From a bacterium (lineage in GTDB: Bacteria; SZUA-79; Acidulodesulfobacterales; Acidulodesulfobacteraceae): a stretch of 64,000 bases of DNA. Position numbers and translations under genes: made by a program. The first letter of the stretch is position 1. Each line of letters begins with the position of its first letter. The stretch is from contig DAHVNW010000004.1 in assembly GCA_027319095.1 (NCBI GenBank), positions 1-64,000 on the forward strand. The letters run 5' to 3'. Positions 5,177-27,970 of this stretch are shown in pieces. The notes beneath the pieces are model-generated. The model was not told the origin of the DNA, made no database searches, and was given only the letters and a program-made list of their open reading frames with translations.

Positions 5177-5665
5177 TCAGAACAGCCCGAACATATTTTT
5201 TAAGGAAGTAATAGCGACGGTATTTAAATAAAAATTAAGTATGGCATATAAAAAAATGCTTGTAATAAGAGGAACGAAAAAATAAGAGTAAATATTTTTA
5301 TCTCTTTCATATAAAACGCCTAGCGCAAGAGATATAGGCGGCGCTCCTATGAACATCTGCCCTATGAAAAGCCCTATTACGGGACCGTATTTTTCAATGT
5401 ATTTATGGGCTTTTTTGCCCTTCCTGGAAGAGCCCATTTTGCCGATCCATTTTATGGATTTAAGTTTCATGCCCGCGTAAAAAAGGAATGTGCATAAAAG
5501 CGTTTCCGATACCGTAATTAAGATAATGCTGACGTACGGATTTAATTTATTATATACGGCGTAAGCGGTAGATACGTATTTGCCGCCTATTAGAGGGATA
5601 ACGTTGATTGCCGTCATTATGAAATATTTATAGCATAAAGGCTTTAGAAATGTTTTATTAAGCAT
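5177..5665 (-). CDS. Small multi-pass membrane protein, possibly VTT/DedA-like or small-exporter-like
   Basis: 162 residues with about four hydrophobic segments. The central part has a positively charged loop followed by an E-K-Y-G-P-V-I-G-L pattern and a Gly/Pro-rich membrane entry (GAPPISLALGVLY). That arrangement recalls VTT/DedA or COG2426-type small membrane proteins, but the resemblance is too weak for a firm name. It is transcribed away from hsp20, with which it shares a divergent intergenic region, and converges on the unknown secreted protein. The N-terminal start is uncertain: Met17 could also serve. Confidence 0.6.
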   Translation of the reverse strand: MLNKTFLKPLCYKYFIMTAINVIPLIGGKYVSTAYAVYNKLNPYVSIILITVSETLLCTFLFYAGMKLKSIKWIGKMGSSRKGKKAHKYIEKYGPVIGLFIGQMFIGAPPISLALGVLYERDKNIYSYFFVPLITSIFLYAILNFYLNTVAITSLKNMFGLF

Positions 5666-6130: not shown

Positions 6131-8476
6131 ATGTTTAATTTAGACTATTATGAAGATAAATTATCGGAAAGCGGATACAGGGTATTGACCATATCTATAG
6201 AGGAATCGAAGCGGAGAAAACATTATTATCTCGGTCTGGAGCATATATTTTACGCTTTAACTTTAGTGGACGAAGATCTTCTTAACGAGATATTTCTCGA
6301 ATTGAAAATCGACAAAAAAAGAGTTATGAAACTTCTAAACGATTATATGCTTGCGTCCGAACAATATATAGGCGAGGGCATGAAGATTCCGCTCCAGACC
6401 AGAAACCTGTTTAAAAGCGCTTACGATTACGCGCAGAGTTCCGGAAGAAACCTTATAGAATCTACCGATTTTTTAATGGTTATGTTTCAGGAGCCGAATT
6501 CTGCGCCGATAAGGGTATTCAAGAACCTTGGCGTAGATTCCGTGATAATTGCAGATAAAATTTTTCAAAAGATGAGGGAAAGACGGAATAGAAGCGACGA
6601 AAACAGAAGAAAATACGACCTGCCTTATACTTTAAGGCAGCACGCAATAAACTTGAGCAAACTCGCCGTTATGGATAAACTGCCGTTGGTATTCGGTAGG
6701 GAGGAAGAGATTACGAGGCTGATGGAAATATTATGCCATATAGACAGGCCTAATTCAGCCGTTATCATAGGCGAGCCGGGCGTCGGGAAAACCGCCGTGG
6801 TGGAAGGACTTGCAAGAAAAATAGAGCTCGAGCCATACAGCGTTCCTCCCAGACTCAGAAATAAAATTATAGTTAATCTCCAGATGAATTCTTTGGTCGC
6901 CGGTACCGTTTTCAGGGGCATGTTCGAAGACAGGATGGAAAAAATTATAAACGAGCTTAAGTCCCGGAAAAATATAATATTATTTGTGGACGAAGTCCAT
7001 TCTATTATAGGAGCGGGTTCTGCCATAGCGGTTCCGAGCGATGCCGCCAATATATTAAAATCTTCTCTTGCCAGGGGCGAAGTGCAAATCATAGGCGCTA
7101 CCACGCTGTCGGAATACAAAGAATTCATTGCCGAAGACGAAGCGCTTGCAAGGCGCTTTAGGATAGTTAACGTTCAGGAGCCTACCGTCGAAGATACAAA
7201 AAGAATACTTTACGGTTTAAAAAGAAGATTTGAAGATACTTACGGCGTCGAAATAGAAAATTCCGCGCTCGACGAGTCTTTAAGACTATCTTCCCGCTAT
7301 TCTAAATCCTTAAGGCTTCCGGACAAGGCTATCGGCTGGATAGATTCCGGCTGCGTAAAAGCCGAAATTTACAACGACGACAGGGTCGTTAAAAAGGAAA
7401 ACATTTATCAGGTTATTTCTCAGGAAACAGGTATGCCAGTGGATTTAATAAAAAGAGACGTATTAGAAAGATTTCAGGATATTGAGGATTTTTTTTCCAA
7501 AAGAATAGTCGGGCAGAAAGATGCCGTTAATTCGCTTGCCAAACATTTAAGGCTTAATAAAGGCCCATTAAAGGGAAACTTTAACAGGCCGGACGCGGTT
7601 CTCCTTTTTCTTGGTCCGACGGGCGTCGGTAAAACCGAAACTGCAAAGGCTATGGCGGAATACCTGTTCGGTTCGGGAAGAAACGTTATAAGAATAGATA
7701 TGTCTGAATATAAAGACGGCTCGATTGCGGTAGATAAACTGATAGGCATGCCGCGGGGCATAGTAGGCTCTTCCAGGGGAGGAATATTGACGAATCAGGT
7801 AAAAGACAATCCCTATTCGGTTATACTTTTAGACGAAATAGAAAAAGCGAGCGATTTGGTATTCAACCTTTTTCTTCAGGTCTTCGACGAAGGCTTTCTT
7901 ACTGACGGCAGAGGTAAAAGAGTTTATTTTTCCGATTCGGTCATAATAATGACTTCCAATCTCGGGTCGCACGAATTTTCAAGGTTTACGAAGCCTCTTG
8001 GATTTATCGAATCCGGCGATATAGTTAAATCTCTAAAAGGGACTATAAATAAAGAAATAGAAAACTTTTTTTCGCCGGAATTCATAAACAGGATAGACGA
8101 CATAGTGATATTTTCGCCGCTTACTAAAGAAGAAGTCAGGCGCATTGCGCAGATGCACATAGAAACTATTAATAAGACGATGTCGGAATACCAGAAAGAA
8201 GTTATAGTAACAGTTGATGCATTAAATAAACTCGTCGAAACCGGATACAGCGCAAAATTCGGCGCAAGGTTTTTAAAGCGCACAATAGACGACATAATAA
8301 AAGTTCCTTTAACTTTAAAATGGAAAGAAGGCGATTTATTTGCCGCAGATGTTGCGGACGGCGAAATCACGGTTACCGTTACGGCGGACAAGAATGCCGG
8401 AAAGGACAATAAAGATAATTTAAAAAAGGATAAGAACGGAAAAGAAAAATATAAAGAGGAGCCGGACTATGTTTGA
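6131..8476 (+). CDS. ClpA/ClpC-like double AAA+ unfoldase lacking an M domain
   Basis: 781 residues: an N-terminal Clp-N repeat domain (1-150), D1 with Walker A GEPGVGKT (214-221), Walker B ILFVDE and arginine-finger region ALARRFR, then D2 with Walker A GPTGVGKT (495-502), Walker B VILLDE and sensor-2 GAR. D1 leads to D2 without the long ClpB-type coiled-coil, as in ClpA. D2 keeps a ClpP-loop-like tripeptide, Leu-Gly-Phe (623-625), at the place where ClpA has IGL. The D1 pore loop reads VFRG instead of the common KYRG. The D2 pore loop, normally GYVG, reads GIVG (Ile544), so its aromatic residue is gone. It lies between hsp20 and a DUF1844 gene, whose start it overlaps by 8 bp. No clpP or clpS is visible in the window. 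Whether it feeds ClpP or acts alone, as ClpG/ClpK-type disaggregases do, is open. Confidence 0.9.
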   Translation: MFNLDYYEDKLSESGYRVLTISIEESKRRKHYYLGLEHIFYALTLVDEDLLNEIFLELKIDKKRVMKLLNDYMLASEQYIGEGMKIPLQTRNLFKSAYDYAQSSGRNLIESTDFLMVMFQEPNSAPIRVFKNLGVDSVIIADKIFQKMRERRNRSDENRRKYDLPYTLRQHAINLSKLAVMDKLPLVFGREEEITRLMEILCHIDRPNSAVIIGEPGVGKTAVVEGLARKIELEPYSVPPRLRNKIIVNLQMNSLVAGTVFRGMFEDRMEKIINELKSRKNIILFVDEVHSIIGAGSAIAVPSDAANILKSSLARGEVQIIGATTLSEYKEFIAEDEALARRFRIVNVQEPTVEDTKRILYGLKRRFEDTYGVEIENSALDESLRLSSRYSKSLRLPDKAIGWIDSGCVKAEIYNDDRVVKKENIYQVISQETGMPVDLIKRDVLERFQDIEDFFSKRIVGQKDAVNSLAKHLRLNKGPLKGNFNRPDAVLLFLGPTGVGKTETAKAMAEYLFGSGRNVIRIDMSEYKDGSIAVDKLIGMPRGIVGSSRGGILTNQVKDNPYSVILLDEIEKASDLVFNLFLQVFDEGFLTDGRGKRVYFSDSVIIMTSNLGSHEFSRFTKPLGFIESGDIVKSLKGTINKEIENFFSPEFINRIDDIVIFSPLTKEEVRRIAQMHIETINKTMSEYQKEVIVTVDALNKLVETGYSAKFGARFLKRTIDDIIKVPLTLKWKEGDLFAADVADGEITVTVTADKNAGKDNKDNLKKDKNGKEKYKEEPDYV

Positions 8477-8945
8477 AGAAGGCGATAAAAGAAAATTTAA
8501 AGTCATAGACAAAAGAATAAACGGCAAAGCCGAACCGGAAGCCGGAATCAAAAGCGGGGCCGAAGAAGAAAAGAAAGATAAAGCTAAGGAAAAAGCGGAG
8601 GAATCGGAAGCAAATAACGGCGGCATAGATTTCTCGAAAAACGGCGAAGAAATTAAAGAATCTAAAGAAATTAATGGCGGAACCGAATCAGTGGCCGCCG
8701 GTTTCGAAGCCGGTTTCGCCACTTTTATTTATTCTTTAAATACGCAGGCTTTGCTTTTTATGGGGAAAATACCTAATCCTGTAACAAAAAAATACGAAAA
8801 AGAATTAGATGCGGCAAAATACCTCATAGATATCATAGATATGCTTTCTAAAAAAACTAAGGGAAACCTCGACGAAAACGAAGCAAAGCTTATCGAAAAT
8901 ATCTTATATGACCTTAGGATGGCATATATTTCCGAGAAAAAATAA
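8469..8945 (+). CDS. DUF1844 protein with charged N-terminal extension
   Basis: 158 residues. The C-terminal half (from about residue 75) matches the DUF1844 family: a Phe/Ala-rich helix (FEAGFATFIYSLNTQALLFMG), then a Pro-Asn turn, an Asp-Ala-Lys helix and the LIDIIDMLSKKT...NLDENE pattern. This family of small proteins is frequent in deltaproteobacteria and has no assigned reaction. The first 70 residues are almost wholly Lys/Glu/Gly/Ala and look disordered. The start overlaps the upstream ClpA-like gene by 8 bp and clpB follows after 20 bp, so translation is probably coupled. The position suggests an adaptor or partner of one of the two ATPases; that is inference. Confidence 0.8.
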   Translation: MFEEGDKRKFKVIDKRINGKAEPEAGIKSGAEEEKKDKAKEKAEESEANNGGIDFSKNGEEIKESKEINGGTESVAAGFEAGFATFIYSLNTQALLFMGKIPNPVTKKYEKELDAAKYLIDIIDMLSKKTKGNLDENEAKLIENILYDLRMAYISEKK

Positions 8946-8965
8946 AGGGGTTAAAATATTATAGT

Positions 8966-11581
8966 ATGAACTTAAATAATTTTACCATTAAAGCGCAGGA
9001 ATTAATAGAACTTACGATAAACACGGCTAAAGAAGCAAAAAATCCCGATATAAACGATTTGCATCTTTTATATGCTCTTTTAAATTACGACGAAAACAGT
9101 ATAGCGGCATCCGTTTTAAAAAAGATAGGCATAGATATAAAGTCGTTTTCTAAAGAAACGGAAAATGCCCTGTCAAAACTCGCCGTAGTCGAAGGAGGAA
9201 TGGAACCTGGATTTTCCTCCTCGTTAAAACGCATAATCGATGCCGCCGAAAAAAATAAAAACGCGATGAAAGACGATTTTGTTTCGGTAGAGCATTTCGT
9301 TTTAGCATTATTCGACTTTAAGGATACCAGGTCTTACGAAATTTTAACGAGATTCGGTTTAAACAAAGAATCGGTATTAAAAGCTTTAACGGATATCAGG
9401 GGCAATTCCAGGGTTACGGACCAAAATCCCGAAGACAAGTATCAGGCATTGGAAAAATATACCGTCAATTTAACGCAGCTTGCAAAGTCCGGAAAAATAG
9501 ACCCGGTTATAGGCAGGGATGGAGAAATTAGAAGACTTATGGAAGTTCTTTCAAGAAGGACGAAAAACAACCCCGTTTTAATAGGCGATCCGGGCGTGGG
9601 TAAGACAGCCATTGTCGAAGGGCTTGCAAAAAGAATTGCCGACGGGGACGTTCCGGAAATTTTAAAGGGCAAAATCGTTCTTTCTTTAGATTTGGGCTCC
9701 CTGGTAGCGGGGGCAAAATACAGAGGAGAATTCGAAGACAGGCTTAAAGCCGTCGTGAAGGAGATAAAGTCCTCCGAAGGGAAAATAATAATCTTTATAG
9801 ACGAACTTCATAACCTCGTTGGCGCCGGCAAATCCGAAGGTGCAATGGACGCTTCGAACCTTTTAAAACCCGCTTTGGCAAGAGGCGAGCTAAGAGCCAT
9901 AGGCGCAACCACTTTAGACGAATACAGAAAATATATCGAAAAGGACGCCGCATTGGAAAGGAGGTTTCAGCCGGTATTGGTTGACGAACCTTCCCTTGAG
10001 GATACCATTTCTATATTAAGAGGACTTAAAGAGCGATATGAGGCTTATCACGGCATAAGAATAAAAGATTCGGCATTAATTTCTGCGGCGGCGCTTTCCC
10101 ACAGATATATTACGGACAGATTTCTGCCGGATAAGGCGATCGACTTAGTCGATGAGGCTTCGGCAAAATTAAGAATAGAAATAGATTCAATGCCTACAGT
10201 CTTAGACGAGGTACAGAGAAATATAATTAAAATCAAGATAGAACAGGAGGCTTTAAAGAGAGAAAAAGATGCCGAATCTAAAAAAAGATTAAAGGAATTA
10301 GATGTCGAACTTGCAAATTTGGAAGAGGATTTTAATATTAAAAAGGCAAAATGGCAGAATGAGAAAGATTATATCCAAAAAATAGGCGAGATTAAAAAAG
10401 AAATCGATTCGCTCAGGTTTGAAGAGCAAAAATACGAACGTGAAGGAAAATACGACAAAGTTGCGGAAATTAGATACGGCAAATTAAATGAATCAGAGAA
10501 AAAGTTGGAAGACCTGAATAAAGCTATTTCGGAAATTCAGGGAAAAGGCAGTTTTCTAAAAGAAGAAGTCGATGCCGACGACATAGCAAAAGTCGTAGCA
10601 AAATGGACAGGAATACCCGTTTCGAAACTAATGGAAGGGGAAAAAGAAAAACTTCTGATGATAGAAGATCATTTGCACAACAGGGTAATATCGCAGGACG
10701 AGGCGATAAACAGCGTCGCAAATACCGTTAGGCGGTCGAGAGCCGGATTGTCGGATATTAATAAGCCTATAGGTTCATTTATGTTTTTAGGTCCTACCGG
10801 CGTTGGAAAGACGGAATTGGCAAAAGCTCTTGCCGAGTTCTTGTTCGACGACGAAAACAGTATCGTCAGGATTGATATGTCCGAATATATGGAAAAACAT
10901 GCCGTTTCCAGACTTATAGGAGCGCCTCCCGGTTACGTCGGCTACGAAGAAGGCGGACAGCTTACCGAATCTGTTAGAAGGCGGCCTTACAGCGTCGTTT
11001 TGTTCGACGAGGTAGAAAAAGCGCATCAGGATGTTTTCAACGTCCTGCTTCAGCTTCTCGACGACGGAAGACTTACGAACGGTCAGGGCAGGACGGTCGA
11101 TTTTAAAAATACTATTATAATAATGACGTCGAATATCGGTTCCGAAATTATTCAGAGTTACAGCGGTCGGCATTACGAAGAAATGAAAAATAACGTCATG
11201 GGCTTGTTGAAAAACTATTTTAGACCGGAATTTCTTAACAGGCTCGACGATATTATTATATTTCACGCTCTTAGCGAAGACGATATAATAAAAATCGTTA
11301 AAATTCAGATTGCAAAATTAAAAGATATCCTTAAAGAAAAAGGGGTCGATATGGATTATACCGATTCCCTGTTGAAATTTATCGCGATGGAAGGATACGA
11401 CCCGGTTTACGGCGCAAGGCCTTTAAAAAGGGCCATTAAATCTTTTATTCAGGATAGGATTGCGATGGATTTGCTTTCCGGCGGCATAGTTCATGGCGAT
11501 TCGATAGTTATCGACTATAAAGAAGATGCTGGGGGCGTAGTAATAGAAAAAGCGGTATTAGTAAATGCCCAGCCGATATAA
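8966..11581 (+). CDS. clpB: ATP-dependent disaggregase ClpB
   Basis: 871 residues, the normal length. It has an N domain (1-145), D1 with Walker A GDPGVGKT and pore loop KYRGEFEDR, and a coiled-coil M domain (about 400-530, with many Lys/Glu heptads). D2 follows with Walker A GPTGVGKT, intact pore loop GYVGYEEGG and sensor-2 GARPLKRAI. It resolubilises aggregates with the Hsp70 system in the cytoplasm. All catalytic motifs are intact, in contrast to the ClpA-like paralogue just upstream. It is the fourth gene of the quality-control block. The upstream GGGG stretch is only a moderate ribosome binding site and the start is ATG at 8966. After the stop, a regulatory region leads to htrA. Confidence 0.97.
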
Positions 11582-11618
11582 AATTTAAACGATTTAAAAT
11601 TATGAGCTATTTTGACCA

Positions 11619-11659
11619 ATTTGTCATTATGACAAATAAAATATTATCATAATGACAAA
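11619..11659 (+). promoter_or_regulatory. Tandem operator-like dyads upstream of htrA
   Basis: The first dyad (11619-11637) is a perfect palindrome with 9-bp arms around one base, ATTTGTCAT/ATGACAAAT. The second (11644-11658, TTATCAT/ATGACAA) has 7-bp arms with one mismatch. Their centres lie 23 bp apart. Three of the four half-sites share TTGTCAT. They lie roughly 110 bp before the predicted transcription start, a typical place for an enhancer-binding activator of a sigma-54 promoter. Alternatively the outer arms (11620-11632 and 11647-11659) form one 13-bp inverted repeat. Confidence 0.6.
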
Positions 11660-11722
11660 AAGTCCAAGAAAACATCGTTTAAAATCGTTTTAAATCATAT
11701 AAAATATACGCTAAATATTTTT

Positions 11723-11738
11723 TGGCATCATTTTTGCA
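11723..11738 (+). promoter_or_regulatory. Sigma-54 (-24/-12) type promoter for htrA
   Basis: TGGCATCATTTTTGCA matches the RpoN consensus TGGCAC-N5-TTGCA at the GG and GC doublets with exact spacing. Only the C after TGGCA (here T) and the next G (here C) deviate. The predicted start is near 11749, about 29 nt before the htrA ATG, with the ribosome binding site TAGGAG in between. Confidence 0.65.
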
Positions 11739-11777
11739 ATATAAAATTAAACTAAAATTAATAGGAGCTTTTAGATT

Positions 11778-13262
11778 ATGGGGTTAAAATCGGATTCAAA
11801 AATTATCGGTGCCGGAGTTGCCTTGCTTATCGGAATAATAGCTGGAATTATAATTACCGCAAACCTGCATTTATTTAAAAAATCGATGGCAGATGGGAGC
11901 GCGCCGGTAATTTATACGGCTACTAATTCTAAAATGCCGGCTCAGAACGGACCGAGCAATTTTATCGCATTGATAAAACACGATAAACCTTTTGTAGTTA
12001 ATATAAGAACTACCCAAAAGGTGCAGGGTGGGCCGTTTCAAATGTATCAAAGTCCTTTCGGCAGCCAGCCAAATCCTTTCGGAAACTTTTTTAAAAACTT
12101 TTTTAATAACGTTCCTCAGAGGACTTATACGGAGGAAAGTCTCGGCTCGGGTGTAATTATAAGCAAAAACGGGTATATTGTCACAAATAACCACGTCATT
12201 AAGGGCGCGACAAAAATATACGTAAAACTTTCGAACGGAAAAACGTTTAAAGCTAAGGTAATTGGGAAAGACCCGCAGGTTGACCTTGCGCTTCTTAAAA
12301 TTAACGACGGCAATAACCTTCCTGCCGCAATTTTGGGAGATTCCGCTAAGTCGCAGATAGGCGAATGGGTTCTTGCCATAGGAAATCCTTTCGGATTAGG
12401 CTGGACCGTCACCAACGGGATAATAAGCGCAAAAGGCAGAGCTATCGGGGGGCCATACGAAGATTTCATACAGACGAACGCCGCAATTAATCCCGGAAAC
12501 AGCGGCGGACCGTTAATAAATATGAAAGGACAGGTTATAGGCATTAATACGGCCATAATAAAAGGCGCGCAGGGTATAGGATTTTCTATACCTATTAACG
12601 TCGTAAAAGAGGTGCTTCCTGAGCTCGAAACCGGTAAAATTACAAGGGGCTGGCTGGGGATAGAAATTCAAAAAATATCGCCTGCGCTTAAAAAGGCGTT
12701 TAATCTCGAAACTTCGAGAGGGGCATTGATTTCTTCAGTCCTTCCCAACGGTCCGGCGGCAAAAGCAGGATTAAGAAGCGGGGACGTAATAACAAAGTTT
12801 AACGGAAAAACTATCAACGAGATGTCCCAGCTTCCTTGGTTAGTAGGAAATACTAAACCTGGAAAGACGGTTCCTATAGAAATAATAAGAAACGGAAAAA
12901 AAATAACGCTTTCTATAAGGGTAGGCAATTGGAAAAATCCGAAAAATACTTTTAATAAGATAACGCAGAAAGTTTCGGCAAAAAAATTAGGAATTACTGT
13001 TATACCGCTTACGCCCCAAAATATGCAAAGTTACGGTATCCGAAACGTTCGCCGCGGCGTTATAGTTTCGAAGGTAATACCGGGCGGAGCCGGACAAAAA
13101 ATGGGAATTATGCCTGGAGACGTCATACAGTCTATTAATCATCAGGCAGTTAATAATATAAAAGGGTATATAACGGATATAAAAAGAGCCGAGCAATCTA
13201 AGCAGTTTCTTTTTTATATAAGACGCGGCAATATGAAACTTTATCTCGCATATTCGGAATAA
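11778..13262 (+). CDS. degP: Do/HtrA-family periplasmic serine protease-chaperone
   Basis: 494 residues. A short cytoplasmic head and one hydrophobic segment (about 9-28) act as a signal anchor. A trypsin-like domain follows, with the catalytic triad His139 (NNHV), Asp169 (VDLAL) and Ser242 (GNSGG), and then two PDZ domains from about residue 290 and 390. It degrades or refolds misfolded envelope proteins. A Gly/Phe/Pro-rich loop (residues 75-110) precedes the protease core, as in the DegP LA loop. The AGGAG ribosome binding site supports the start. It follows clpB but has its own sigma-54-like promoter and upstream dyads, so it is probably induced separately. A terminator lies 70 bp after the stop. 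Confidence 0.95.
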   Translation: MGLKSDSKIIGAGVALLIGIIAGIIITANLHLFKKSMADGSAPVIYTATNSKMPAQNGPSNFIALIKHDKPFVVNIRTTQKVQGGPFQMYQSPFGSQPNPFGNFFKNFFNNVPQRTYTEESLGSGVIISKNGYIVTNNHVIKGATKIYVKLSNGKTFKAKVIGKDPQVDLALLKINDGNNLPAAILGDSAKSQIGEWVLAIGNPFGLGWTVTNGIISAKGRAIGGPYEDFIQTNAAINPGNSGGPLINMKGQVIGINTAIIKGAQGIGFSIPINVVKEVLPELETGKITRGWLGIEIQKISPALKKAFNLETSRGALISSVLPNGPAAKAGLRSGDVITKFNGKTINEMSQLPWLVGNTKPGKTVPIEIIRNGKKITLSIRVGNWKNPKNTFNKITQKVSAKKLGITVIPLTPQNMQSYGIRNVRRGVIVSKVIPGGAGQKMGIMPGDVIQSINHQAVNNIKGYITDIKRAEQSKQFLFYIRRGNMKLYLAYSE

Positions 13263-13330
13263 AAATTTTGAATAAAAGTTTTTCTTAAAACCAATACAAA
13301 CTGTAAGCTTTCCATCACTCCTCCTAAAGG

Positions 13331-13366
13331 TAGCCCGGCTCCGTAAAAAGAGCCGGGTTATTTATT
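13331..13366 (+). terminator. Rho-independent terminator after htrA
   Basis: GC-rich stem CCCGGCTC (13334-13341) and GAGCCGGG (13350-13357) with an 8-nt loop, extended by A-T pairs and followed by TTATTTATT. It closes the chaperone/protease block. Confidence 0.8.
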
Positions 13367-13399
13367 GAATTCCGCAATTTTCTTTGCTAAAATAATAGA

Positions 13400-15460
13400 G
13401 TGCAAAATTTTATTTTAGGAACCGCTGGACATATAGACCATGGAAAATCTTCACTAATTAAGGCATTGACCGGCGTAGAGACCGACAGGCTCGAAGAAGA
13501 AAAAAGGCGCGGTATTAGCATAGTACTCGGTTATGCCTCTATGGTTTTTCCTTCCGGAATATTCGTCGGCATAGTGGACGTTCCCGGACATGCAAAATTT
13601 ATAAAGACTATGGTTTCAGGTTCGATGGGAATGGACGGCGTTCTTTTGACTGTTGCCGCGGACGATGGAATAATGGCTCAAACCCGGGAACATCTCCTTA
13701 TTTTAAAACTTCTCGGCGTCCGTTTAATCATTCCGGTTATTACCAAAATAGATTTAGTTCCGGACGAAATTATTTTGAAAAGAGAATCTGAGGTTAAAGA
13801 TTTTTTAAAATCGTACGGTTATGTTTTAGCGGTCGAAAATATAATTAAAGTTTCCGTTAAATCAAGGGCGGGAATTGACGAATTAAAAAGCGCAATAGAA
13901 AGAACCGCAAAAGAATATAATTCGAAAACCGGCGGAGAAGCCTTTTCCGAAAAGATATTTTTGCCTATAGACAGAATTATAACGTCGAAAGGTTTCGGAA
14001 CTATTTTAGCGGGAACTTTGAAACACGGAAGGTTTTCATCGGGGGACGAAATAGAAATAATGCCCTCAGGTTTAATTAGTAAAATCAAAAGCATAGAGTC
14101 GCACAACAAGATTATCGAAACCGCCGAAAAATCTATGAGAATAGCGGTTAACATTCCGCCTTTAAAGAAGAGAGGCGTTAATTTCGGCGACGTAATATCG
14201 GCGAAAGGCTCTCTTGCCGCGACGAATTCTATTTTTACTAAATTTTTTTACGATTTCGAAAACAAAAAAGAATTGAAGAGCTATGTTTCGCTGTCTTTTA
14301 TGACCGGCGGAGTATCGGTAAGTTCTAAAATAATAATACTTAACCAAAAAAAAAGAGTGGTACCGGGAGATTATGCTTATGCTTTATTTAAATTAAACAA
14401 TGAAATATCTACTATGAATAAGGAAAGATTTATAGTCCGGGATACGGGAGCAGGTAGGACTATAGGCGGCGGCATTATAATAGACCCTTCGGCGGGGTCG
14501 GGCGTTGCCTTAAACTTAAATCTGCCTGCGGCGTATATGGTCGGAAGCATGGAACGGTTAGAACAGCGCGTTAAGTCCGTAGAAGGCATAAAGGGCATAG
14601 AAGGCGGCGAAGGGAGCGAAAATTCGCCTAAGTTACCCGATTTATATAAGTTAAACGAGTTATACGAAGGCATGATTTCGGATAAGGCGGAAGACGCAGT
14701 TTATAGTTTTATACGCGCTTCAAACGATGGAAATCTCGAAGATATATATAAAAGACTTAACTTGGAACGGACATATTTTATAAATATTTTAGAAAAATTA
14801 AAAGCGGCCGGTCGCATAGCGTCAGACGATAAAAACAAGCATGCTTTCGCAAGAGAATATTTCGAAGAAGGCAGAAATTTATTATTAAAGTTCATAAACG
14901 AAAAAAATGTTTTAAGCGTCCAGGAGCTATACAATATTTTTTCGGAAAATATGAAACATAGGAACGGCTCCCTTTTCGAGGCCGTTTTAGACTATTTATT
15001 ATCCAAAAAGTATGCTTTAAAAACCGGCGGAAATATTATTTCGAAAGAATACGGAAATATAACAGACGTAAATAAAATCTCTCTGCCTCAAGAATATACG
15101 GAAATTGCGGAAAAAATAGAAAAATTATTAAAATTAAGCGGCAACGGCGTTCCGGATTATGCCGAAATAGAAAAGAAAATAAACTCAGGTAAAAAAGCGT
15201 TAAATTTTATTTTAAGCATAATGGTTAAGCAGGGCAGGCTTGTTAGAGTAAAGAACGATATTTATTACCTTAAGGGGCAAATAGACGATATTAAGGCAAA
15301 ATTAGAAGATTTCTTTCTAAAGGAAGAAAAATTGGAGCCTAAAAACATGAAAGAAATAGCCGGAGTATCCCGAAAATATGCTATTCCCCTTCTCGAATAT
15401 TTCGACAATACCGGATATACGGTAAAAAAAGGGGATTATCGAATAAAAAACCGCGGATAA
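13400..15460 (+). CDS. selB: Selenocysteine-specific elongation factor SelB
   Basis: 686 residues starting at GTG. The GTPase domain has G1 GHIDHGKSS, the SelB-typical switch EEKRRGISIVLGYA, G3 DVPGH and G4 TKID. Domains II and III follow, then C-terminal winged-helix modules (from about residue 430) that bind the SECIS hairpin of selenoprotein mRNAs. A Gly/Glu-rich insert (about residues 400-415) precedes the winged-helix part. It delivers Sec-tRNA to in-frame UGA codons. Neither selA, selC nor selD is in the window, so they must be elsewhere if the system is complete. It sits between the htrA terminator and the menaquinone cluster and appears to be a single-gene unit. Confidence 0.93.
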   Translation: MQNFILGTAGHIDHGKSSLIKALTGVETDRLEEEKRRGISIVLGYASMVFPSGIFVGIVDVPGHAKFIKTMVSGSMGMDGVLLTVAADDGIMAQTREHLLILKLLGVRLIIPVITKIDLVPDEIILKRESEVKDFLKSYGYVLAVENIIKVSVKSRAGIDELKSAIERTAKEYNSKTGGEAFSEKIFLPIDRIITSKGFGTILAGTLKHGRFSSGDEIEIMPSGLISKIKSIESHNKIIETAEKSMRIAVNIPPLKKRGVNFGDVISAKGSLAATNSIFTKFFYDFENKKELKSYVSLSFMTGGVSVSSKIIILNQKKRVVPGDYAYALFKLNNEISTMNKERFIVRDTGAGRTIGGGIIIDPSAGSGVALNLNLPAAYMVGSMERLEQRVKSVEGIKGIEGGEGSENSPKLPDLYKLNELYEGMISDKAEDAVYSFIRASNDGNLEDIYKRLNLERTYFINILEKLKAAGRIASDDKNKHAFAREYFEEGRNLLLKFINEKNVLSVQELYNIFSENMKHRNGSLFEAVLDYLLSKKYALKTGGNIISKEYGNITDVNKISLPQEYTEIAEKIEKLLKLSGNGVPDYAEIEKKINSGKKALNFILSIMVKQGRLVRVKNDIYYLKGQIDDIKAKLEDFFLKEEKLEPKNMKEIAGVSRKYAIPLLEYFDNTGYTVKKGDYRIKNRG

Positions 15461-24642: not shown

Positions 24643-26217
24643 TCACTTAGCCTCTTTAGATAGTATATACCTGAGCGACCTTAAGGATAAGCCCAAGCTT
24701 TTAGCCGCTTCTATTTTAGAATTTTCCGTTTTTATCCTGTTTGCCGTTATGTAATTCTCTATTTTTTTAATAAAATCAGGAAGAGATATATTCTCCGTTT
24801 TATTTACATAATTAAAAATATCAGCTATATCCGCCATATAATCTTTGCCTTCTTCAACTTCCTTGCCATCCTTGTTCTCTTCGTAATTTTTGCCGTGGTT
24901 CATGGAATGCGCATATGTTTTTTGGATTTCCGGCATTTTTTCTTTTACGGTTTCTTCGTGTTTTTCGCTTTTATCATTATTTATAACGTAATCGGGAAGG
25001 CATTCTAAACCTATTTCCATAATGTTCCTGCCTTCGCCAGCATTCGGTAAGGTTTGCGCTACGCCGCCTTCGCAGTAAATACAGGCTCTTTCGATAATAT
25101 TTTCAAGTTCTCTGACGTTTCCAGGATAATCGTAGGCGGTAAGGATTTCCAAAGCTTCCTTAGAAACCGAATTAATATTTTTTGAATATTTCTTTATAAA
25201 ATAAGAAATAAGCTCTGGAACATCTTCTTTATGGTTTCTAAGGGGCGGCATCTTAATATTTATCTTATTTAGTCTGTAATACAAATCGTCTCTGAATTTT
25301 CCGGCAGATATTGATCCATCCAGGCCTATGTTGGTAGCGGCTATTATCTTAATGCTGACCGGTTCTTCCCTGTTGGAACCTAATCTTCTGCATGTTTTCT
25401 CCTGCAATAGCCTCAATAACTTTACCTGAACCTGCATAGGCAAATCGCCTATTTCGTCTAAGAAAAGTATCCCGCCGTCCGCATATTTTATTAAACCCAT
25501 TTTATCAGTTTCCGCTCCGGTAAAAGCCCCCTTAGCATATCCAAAAAGTTCGCTTTCTATGAGATTTTCGGGAATAGCGGCAATATTAACTGGAACGAAG
25601 GGTATGTTTTTTTTGCCTCCTGATCCTTTCGAATAAATTTCATAAATTAATCTTGCGGCGAGTTCTTTCCCTGTTCCGGATTCGCCTGTAATTAATATGG
25701 TATTAAAACCTGCGGAGACCTTGTTTATCTCGTTTAAGATATGGATTATGGCTTTAGAGCCGCCTTTTATTTCTCCGGCGTAAACTTTAGCCGCTTTTTT
25801 TATATTATGCAATTCGTCTAAGACGCCGAAATAATCTATCGCCCTTCTGACGATTATTTTAAATTCTTCGTTATCGAAAGGTTTAATAAGATAGTCGAAT
25901 GCCCCCAGCTTTATCGCTTCTATTCCAGTTTTAATGTCGGAAAAAGCCGTCATCAATATGACCGGAATTTGTTTATATTTCAAACTCGAGTCGGCTGTTT
26001 CGTTTTTAAAATATTTTATAAAATCTATCCCCGACATTTTCGGCATTCTGACGTCCGATATAATTAAACTAAAACTTTTTTCCCGAATAAGTTTTACTGC
26101 CGCGTTTACGTTTTCGGCAGTAAAAATATCGTATCCTTCAAGTTTAAGAAGTATAGATAAAGATTCGAGTATGGATTTTTCGTCGTCTATTATTAATATT
26201 TCAGGCTTTTTTTTCAT
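24643..26217 (-). CDS. pilR: Sigma-54-dependent response regulator, PilR-like
   Basis: 524 residues. Receiver domain (1-125) with acidic pocket DDE, phospho-acceptor Asp in ISDVRMP and Lys in LIKPFD. AAA+ domain (about 145-380) with Walker A GESGTGKE, intact GAFTGA loop for sigma-54 contact, and Walker B GGILFLDEIGD. A Fis-type helix-turn-helix lies at the C-terminus (AAKSLGLSLRSLRYILS). An unusually long, Lys/Glu-rich linker of roughly 70-80 residues separates the AAA+ part from the HTH. It is activated by the kinase encoded just upstream (4-bp gap) and probably drives pilin transcription. It is the only enhancer-binding protein in the window, and so the only local candidate for the htrA promoter. 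Confidence 0.92.
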   Translation of the reverse strand: MKKKPEILIIDDEKSILESLSILLKLEGYDIFTAENVNAAVKLIREKSFSLIISDVRMPKMSGIDFIKYFKNETADSSLKYKQIPVILMTAFSDIKTGIEAIKLGAFDYLIKPFDNEEFKIIVRRAIDYFGVLDELHNIKKAAKVYAGEIKGGSKAIIHILNEINKVSAGFNTILITGESGTGKELAARLIYEIYSKGSGGKKNIPFVPVNIAAIPENLIESELFGYAKGAFTGAETDKMGLIKYADGGILFLDEIGDLPMQVQVKLLRLLQEKTCRRLGSNREEPVSIKIIAATNIGLDGSISAGKFRDDLYYRLNKINIKMPPLRNHKEDVPELISYFIKKYSKNINSVSKEALEILTAYDYPGNVRELENIIERACIYCEGGVAQTLPNAGEGRNIMEIGLECLPDYVINNDKSEKHEETVKEKMPEIQKTYAHSMNHGKNYEENKDGKEVEEGKDYMADIADIFNYVNKTENISLPDFIKKIENYITANRIKTENSKIEAAKSLGLSLRSLRYILSKEAK

Positions 26218-26221
26218 CGAA

Positions 26222-27970
26222 CTAACAAGGCAAATTAATTTTAATTAGCGTTCCTTTTCCTTTACTGCTTATTATTGCCGTTTCTCCGCCCATGCTTTCT
26301 ATAATCGAATATACGATAGATAAGCCCAGCCCGGATCCGTTTTCCTTGGTAGTAAAAAGCGGCTTGAAAGCATTTTTTTTCGTAAAATCGTCCATTCCTT
26401 CCCCGTTATCTGAAACGCTTATAGATACATAATTTTTGTTGCCGGTTTTTAATATTTTTTTTGAGCTTATTCTAATAATTCCCGTTCCGGTTATTCTACT
26501 CTTGCCGTCAAAAAATTTCTTTTCCACTGATTGTACCGCATTCTGAATTATATTTGCAAGGACTTGCCTTATCCTGCTTTTTTCCGAGAGCGCTACGGCA
26601 TTTTTTTCGATGCCGTTATGTATTTTCACGTAAGCGCCGGCATACGGACGAATTAATTCCTCTGCAAGCAAAAATAAATTAATATTTTCAAAATTGTCGC
26701 GGAAACGGTCATTCCTTGGTTTAACTTTTACGAAACCCAGGAAATCGTTTACTAAATTATCTAATCTTCCGGCTTCGGATTGTATTATTCCTATTAACTT
26801 TTTATAATCGTTCTCCTTGCTGTCTATGTTTTCGGAACTTAAAATATAAATAGACGTATTTATGGCGGAAAGCGGATTTCTTATTTCATGCGCAAGCCAT
26901 CCGGCAAGTTTTCCCGCCGTCGTCAGCCTTTCGTTAATTTTAGATTCCAGTTCCAACTGTTTTATATAAGTTATATCCCTAAATAATAAAATAAAGCCGC
27001 CTGTTTTATTTTCCGCGTTTTTTAATTTCGTCAGCGCAAATCCCAAAATGGAATCTTTATGCTTTAATTCAAACCTTTCCAGGCTGTCTTTGTCTTTATT
27101 CGCAATATTGCCGGCAGTTGCGTTATCTAATTTGCCTTTTTCACCAAAAATTTCTATAGGAAAATTTTCTATTATATCAGACAATTTTATATTAAATTTA
27201 TACAGGATACCGGTTTTATTTCTAAAATAGGCATCATAGCGGCTTAAATTAAGCATATTGATTGCTTCGTTGTTAAGAAAAATAACATTAATTTTATCGT
27301 CTAAAACCATTATGCCCTGCGAAAAACTATTAAATAACTCCCTGTTGAAATTTTGCGATTTTCTTATGAATTCGTCCCTTTCCACCATTTTATCGCTAAG
27401 CATGCCTAATTCTCCTGAAAAGTGGTAAAGCAGCCAGCTGAATATTAAAACTCCCAGTATATTGACGCTAGTTAATAATAGCAGTTTATCAGGATTATAG
27501 AAAAAGTAATAGTGATAGCCTATATTGGAGTAATATTGCAAATCTGCAGACAGACCTAATGCCAATGCTGAAGATATGCCGAATATCATTACGCCTAATC
27601 TTAAAAAAATAAATCCGGCTATAAGAATAAGCAGATAATATAAAAAAATAAATTTACCGTTTATACCTCCGTTAAATACGATTACCGCCGATATAAAAAT
27701 AAAATCGACGAGAAGCTGAAGAAAACCGAAATAGACCAAGAACCTATCATTTTCTTTTTTTCTAAAAAATATAAGCAGCGTGGAATAAATAAAGGTAATG
27801 AATGACGCTATAGATATAGAAACGTATATAAAAATACTGTGGCGGTTTATATCTTTAAAATTAATTAATACATAAGCGAGAATAATTAACGAAAAAGCTA
27901 AAATCCTGAATATTACGGTAAACTTTATTTTCTCGTATAAGTCTTTGTATTTATAACCTATATTATCCAT
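26222..27970 (-). CDS. pilS: Membrane histidine kinase, PilS-like
   Basis: 582 residues. About six N-terminal membrane segments (to residue 190) match the PilS layout. A PAS-like domain (about 210-345) follows, then the HisKA H-box AHEIRNPLSAINTS and the HATPase with N-box NIIQNAVQSV, DNGEGMD and GSGLGLSIV. It phosphorylates the adjacent PilR-like regulator. In PilS proteins the membrane part senses the pilin pool. It sits downstream of pilC but is separated from it by 244 bp of palindromic repeats. Confidence 0.9.
   Translation of the reverse strand: MDNIGYKYKDLYEKIKFTVIFRILAFSLIILAYVLINFKDINRHSIFIYVSISIASFITFIYSTLLIFFRKKENDRFLVYFGFLQLLVDFIFISAVIVFNGGINGKFIFLYYLLILIAGFIFLRLGVMIFGISSALALGLSADLQYYSNIGYHYYFFYNPDKLLLLTSVNILGVLIFSWLLYHFSGELGMLSDKMVERDEFIRKSQNFNRELFNSFSQGIMVLDDKINVIFLNNEAINMLNLSRYDAYFRNKTGILYKFNIKLSDIIENFPIEIFGEKGKLDNATAGNIANKDKDSLERFELKHKDSILGFALTKLKNAENKTGGFILLFRDITYIKQLELESKINERLTTAGKLAGWLAHEIRNPLSAINTSIYILSSENIDSKENDYKKLIGIIQSEAGRLDNLVNDFLGFVKVKPRNDRFRDNFENINLFLLAEELIRPYAGAYVKIHNGIEKNAVALSEKSRIRQVLANIIQNAVQSVEKKFFDGKSRITGTGIIRISSKKILKTGNKNYVSISVSDNGEGMDDFTKKNAFKPLFTTKENGSGLGLSIVYSIIESMGGETAIISSKGKGTLIKINLPC

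Follow-up and report, generated by a model that had tools for sequence, protein, structure and literature searches.

A putative sigma-54 envelope-stress regulon headed by htrA, with an RNA element in the htrA 3' UTR, in the Acidulodesulfobacterales

Results

In the family studied here, which consists of uncultured bacteria of acid-mine settings, the gene for the periplasmic protease HtrA probably heads a small envelope-stress regulon that would be switched by sigma-54 and an enhancer-binding protein (EBP), and that would make both HtrA and a small RNA (sRNA) from the 3' UTR of its transcript. The proposal is built on features that can be read from the sequence itself: a promoter and paired dyads, their conservation and recurrence, the presence of rpoN, the invariance of the RNA, its covarying terminator and its stand-alone copies. 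The starting point was a window of 64,000 nucleotides (contig DAHVNW010000004.1), which belongs to a 1.78-Mb draft genome, G000, of a family that includes Candidatus Acididesulfobacter diazotrophicus.

The htrA locus and its sigma-54 promoter

Since clpB ends at 11581 and htrA starts at 11778, the gap between them (11582-11777) measures 196 bp. The htrA product carries the trypsin-like and PDZ domains of the Do family (HtrA/DegP) and scores 474 bits against TIGR02037 (cut-off 416), a Shine-Dalgarno sequence AGGAG stands immediately 5' of the htrA ATG, and the gene after htrA begins at 13400. The features of the locus up to the end of htrA are as follows.

8966-11581, forward strand: clpB, the upstream neighbour of the regulatory gap
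11620-11636, no strand assigned: distal candidate activator dyad, TTTGTCATTATGACAAA, paired upstream of all orthologs and not repeated exactly anywhere else in the genome
11643-11659, no strand assigned: proximal candidate activator dyad, ATTATCATAATGACAAA, a member of the conserved pair
11723-11738, forward strand: sigma-54 promoter, -24/-12 element TGGCATCATTTTTGCA, found ahead of htrA at each of the 27 distinct orthologous loci
11749, forward strand: inferred transcription start, from sigma-54 geometry, about 12 nt past the -12 GC
11778-13262, forward strand: htrA, encoding a Do-family periplasmic serine protease with a trypsin domain and two PDZ domains

The original prediction, made from the window alone, had put a -24/-12 element at 11723-11738 in this 196-bp gap, and its position is correct. 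The element TGGCATCATTTTTGCA has the GG-N10-GC arrangement, and the window has no other sequence that fits TGGCAT-N2-TT-N-TTGCW exactly; none of 2000 dinucleotide-shuffled versions of the gap contained a strict -24/-12 element. A scan for RpoN motifs, which had been proposed as a check, gave 14 occurrences of the strict pattern in G000 versus 2 for the reversed control. These sites precede the nif genes, glnK, pilA, lpxC and a ccdA-like gene, among others (gene names taken from the sequences), as expected for a functioning sigma-54 system. The genome also encodes one copy of rpoN, the absence of which was to have counted against the idea, and seven EBPs.

As an observation on the surroundings, positions 6131-13262 of the window form a proteostasis cluster that encodes a ClpA-like ATPase, a DUF1844 protein, ClpB and HtrA; an Hsp20-like gene lies just upstream of the cluster in one relative (L118), and upstream of the clp genes the window has a 162-aa open reading frame on the reverse strand (5177-5665) with no Pfam match.

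Paired dyads upstream of the promoter

The distal dyad reads TTTGTCAT-T-ATGACAAA and the proximal one ATTATCAT-A-ATGACAAA, with their centres about 121 and 98 bp upstream of the inferred start. The two TTGTCAT/ATGACAA dyads noticed initially, 23 bp apart, are thus real, with the qualification that the second carries one mismatch in an arm. A search of G000, likewise suggested at the outset, returned the mismatch-free dyad pattern at these two htrA sites only and no second target for it in the window's own genome; a search with a 2-nt centre gave no match, the actual centre being 1 nt. An equally perfect 7+1+7 palindrome appeared in 11% of 2000 dinucleotide shuffles of the gap, so in such AT-rich DNA the dyads become convincing only through comparison.

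For that comparison, htrA orthologs (75-100% identity in HtrA) were gathered from 30 family genomes. The promoter and the paired dyads occur together at 27 of 27 distinct htrA loci, spread over six genera: every region has TGGCA(C/T)-N5-(T/A)TGC(A/T) at 48-218 bp 5' of the start codon, with two dyads upstream of it (in G026 these sit on an abutting contig), and conservation rises over the flanks at the dyads and at the promoter. This conservation in close relatives, the lack of which would have spoken against the element, marks the dyads as genuine. The motif compiled from 56 sites reads TTTG(T/C)C(A/G)-N3-(T/C)G(A/G)CAAA, with C invariant at -3 and G, C and A invariant at +3, +5 and +6. The dyads are spaced by 22-24, 30-33 or 39-43 bp, close to 2, 3 and 4 helical turns and never near half turns, a phasing that is suggestive, the clades not being independent. 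The centre of the proximal dyad lies 94-265 bp from the inferred start, within the 80-300 bp range of EBP sites, and the sites are paired and in helical phase. Across 386 genomes, the paired pattern was found in 19 of 30 family members versus 1 of 356 others, and the reversed control in none. We examined the lone match outside the family (G274, L278) as a possible true module and rejected it; it is a dispersed intergenic repeat.

The module also recurs elsewhere. One genus (g2) has a second locus at which this pair of dyads and a sigma-54 promoter precede conserved non-coding DNA closed by an intrinsic terminator; the next gene upstream of this second locus is divergent. Given this recurrence, the module is best seen as a portable unit of regulation, not as the end of clpB. 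A gene for a 181-aa secreted protein near the second locus was considered as the driven gene and dismissed, given that the module drives an RNA about 700 nt upstream of it. In three genomes of three genera (G001 of g1, G018 of g4 and G023 of g2), related dyads and TGGCATATTTATTGC-type promoters stand before a gene for a protein of 96-103 aa with no Pfam match, which is likely a further member of the regulon (L378, L379, L115).

One could also speculate that the dyads act as an RNA hairpin, either a terminator of clpB or an mRNA end, and not as activator sites. The pair does fold as a stem of 13-15 bp (z-scores of -4.5 for the window and -4.2 for L035), in many genomes each site is almost exactly the reverse complement of the other, and one subclade has imperfect dyads that are nevertheless fully complementary to one another. 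Any palindrome present twice pairs with its other copy, however, and cross-site pairing cannot by itself separate a hairpin from protein sites. What makes the hairpin highly improbable is that the htrA dyads have no terminator-like T-run, that at the second g2 locus the divergent upstream gene leaves no transcript to terminate, that the spacing keeps helical phase, and that the cross-pairing is broken in some genomes.

Candidate activators

That htrA is under sigma-54 and an activator encoded elsewhere, as originally proposed, is well supported by the presence of rpoN, the conservation at 27 of 27 loci and the occurrence of the module at unlinked loci; the further proposal that this activator is PilR is unproven. 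PilR had been singled out as the only EBP in view, and the window does hold a real PilS/PilR-type pair, adjoining pilC, pilT and pilB, but the genome encodes six other EBPs. Only two EBPs, NtrX and the two-component EBP at G000:C103, were found in all six genera.

24643-26217, reverse strand: PilR-like EBP, a candidate activator
26222-27970, reverse strand: PAS histidine kinase, the likely partner of the PilR-like EBP
G000:C103 (L120:3589-5163): orphan NtrC-family two-component EBP with a two-helix membrane kinase

Our slightly preferred candidate, put forward tentatively, is the C103 EBP over PilR and NtrX. It was not found in 5 of 30 genomes, all of them incomplete. The idea that the changed dyads of one subclade (G002, G005, G011 and G014) reflect an altered DNA-binding domain of this EBP was discarded, as the domain is intact.

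If PilR (24643-26217) bound the htrA dyads, pilus signalling and envelope quality control would share an activator. PilR is present in 5 of the 6 genera compared, its recognition helices are conserved, and the half-sites TTGTCAT/ATGACAA are the same upstream of htrA and of pilA in G000 and G019. They are, however, everted at pilA (ATGACAA-N3-TTGTCAT) and inverted at htrA (TTGTCAT-N-ATGACAA), two arrangements that a rigid Fis-type dimer should not both read, and the C at -3 that is fixed in the htrA site is C or A in the pilA copies. PilR is established elsewhere as the driver of pilA; if it is so here, the PilR site is the same half-site in everted form, and PilR probably reads a geometry other than that of the htrA dyads. 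The identity of the half-sites is striking and keeps PilR in play, the geometry weighs against it, and we regard it as a rather unlikely activator of htrA. The apparent absence of PilR from G018, which keeps the htrA element, was set aside as counter-evidence because pilB/pilT lie at a contig end there.

As a separate observation, pilA of G000 (L165, G000:C105) and a pilin operon of G019 (G019:C1:2897) each have a sigma-54 promoter accompanied by ATGACAA-N3-TTGTCAT repeats, two or three in number, which are the probable PilR site in this family.

NtrX (G000:C11, L119:3761-5134), a regulator of envelope genes in alphaproteobacteria, would be a third candidate. The protein at G000:C11 has NtrX as its best match, it occurs in 6 of 6 genera, and in Rhodobacter the cell envelope is under NtrYX control (PMC7240162). 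No TTGTC-N5-GACAA dyad, however, accompanies the sigma-54 promoter adjacent to ntrX (porin-glnK-amtB), and NtrX seems a very unlikely choice; an activator other than these three is also quite unlikely.

An RNA element in the htrA 3' UTR

The locus has a further part, an RNA element 3' of htrA, which the original prediction did not mention.

13290-13378, forward strand: htrA 3'-UTR RNA element (model R1, 99 bits)
13299-13330, forward strand: conserved core of the RNA element, AACTGTAAGCTTTCCATCACTCCTCCTAAAGG
13333-13366, forward strand: intrinsic terminator of the htrA transcript and RNA, stem 13333-13341 with 13350-13358 and a T-rich tail

When the g2 RNA was searched in all fetched DNA, an element of about 70 nt was found directly 3' of htrA at every family locus. 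Its 34 aligned copies share an invariant CACUCCUCCU-AAAG, an anti-Shine-Dalgarno sequence, and a conserved leader ACUGUAAGCUUUCC. Column identity is 1.0 in the RNA core versus about 0.8 in the adjacent htrA coding sequence, and the terminator stem covaries between genera, with two-sided changes in 5 of 13 pairs. The element thereby has the conserved unpaired region and the intrinsic terminator of a 3'-UTR-derived sRNA. In five g2 genomes a stand-alone copy of the RNA lies behind its own dyads and sigma-54 promoter, and in four g2 genomes an additional copy follows the gene for the 181-aa secreted protein. In 1.2 Mb of G019 a covariance model detected no additional copies above noise, and Rfam gave no match at threshold. 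It may be noted in passing that the secreted protein gene (L111, L112, L113 and L257; g2) has copies of the htrA 3'-UTR RNA on both sides.

The features that usually mark an sRNA are all present, namely an invariant unpaired seed, a covarying terminator and free-standing copies with a promoter, and the stand-alone g2 genes make a separate, trans-acting RNA likely. Its complementarity to Shine-Dalgarno sites suggests translational repression as the likely action, and the Shine-Dalgarno form expected to face the seed would be AGGAGGAGUG. Prediction of sRNA targets in G019 was too noisy to name any.

The element could instead act in cis, with CUCCUCC pairing with the Shine-Dalgarno sequence of htrA and limiting its translation, or it could be just a terminator whose 5' flank is conserved. 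There are precedents for cis action by an anti-Shine-Dalgarno 3' UTR, such as icaR, and most loci have AGGAG or GGAGG before htrA. Against this, the RNA occurs without htrA behind its own promoter, and its predicted duplex with the htrA leader has a modest energy of -13.9 kcal/mol. We consider a cis role unlikely.

Proposed mechanism and known systems

Taking the trans-acting sRNA as the preferred reading, we infer EBP binding, the stress signal, the release of the sRNA and its targets as follows. A signal would pass through a kinase to a phosphorylated NtrC-family EBP, probably a two-component response regulator, which would sit as a hexamer on the two dyads (TTGTCR-N3-YGACAA) on the same helix face, about 100-120 bp upstream. 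DNA looping would then allow RNA polymerase-sigma54 to form an open complex at 11723-11738; activation of this kind is all-or-none and ATP-dependent. A single transcript would encode HtrA and carry in its 3' UTR an RNA that has a terminator of its own and leaves its anti-Shine-Dalgarno sequence exposed; this RNA would probably be a small RNA that reduces the translation of other mRNAs during envelope stress. While HtrA clears misfolded periplasmic protein, the RNA would cut the synthesis of unneeded, perhaps envelope, proteins.

A limited search of the open-access literature found no paper on sigma-54 control of htrA. HtrA/DegP is a textbook output of sigmaE and Cpx, and the sigmaE regulon includes the sRNAs MicA and RybB. 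Like that regulon, in which degP is under sigmaE control (PMC8103513), the present system would place HtrA/DegP and regulatory RNA on one envelope-stress switch, although the switch there is an ECF sigma factor under anti-sigma control and here a sigma-54 promoter with upstream dyads. In the Cpx response of E. coli, the envelope-stress gene cpxP gives rise to the 3' UTR sRNA CpxQ (PMC4817254), so that an sRNA and terminator lie in the 3' UTR of a stress gene, and protein and RNA come from one stress promoter, as we propose here; that promoter is CpxR-dependent and CpxP is chaperone-like, whereas here we find a sigma-54 promoter, the protease HtrA and stand-alone copies of the RNA.

The nearest known link of sigma-54 to envelope stress is QseF/GlrR. 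Together with sigma-54, QseEF/GlrKR serves GlmY and rpoE P2 through TGTC/GACA half-sites (PMC8745638, PMC8103513), and hence shares with the present case a two-component EBP and sigma-54 serving an sRNA and envelope stress, as well as the half-sites. Its site is nevertheless TGTC-N10-GACA, compared with TGTC-N5-GACA here, and it has no direct control of htrA. In the sigma-54 regulome of Desulfovibrio vulgaris, envelope stress is the assigned role of two EBPs, and one of the two has an ncRNA target as well (PMC4641369); no mention of HtrA was found in that report, and the targets differ from those here.

A broader conjecture, which we hold to be evenly balanced, is that in the Acidulodesulfobacterales/SZUA-79 a sigma-54 envelope-stress response replaces sigmaE or Cpx, with HtrA and an embedded anti-Shine-Dalgarno sRNA as its core, and that in one genus the sRNA has broken away into a gene of its own under the same enhancer. 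Control of HtrA/DegP by sigma-54, together with a co-transcribed regulatory RNA, would mean that a stress output of protease plus sRNA has been rebuilt in evolution on a transcription switch of unrelated kind. The sharply defined element makes the activator directly testable, and the RNA seed predicts targets.

Other sigma-54 promoters

In each of two genera a sigma-54 promoter precedes an lpxC-like gene, of lipid A synthesis (L168, G000:C124:58701; G019:C1:78607), with TGCGAA/TTCGCA dyads upstream in G000; sigma-54 control of lpxC would be unusual. Downstream of a kinase-EBP pair (L121, G000:C124:71256; G019:C1:138603) lie a sigma-54 promoter and a CcdA/DsbD-like gene, the dyads of which read TTGTTCC-N5-GGACA in G000.
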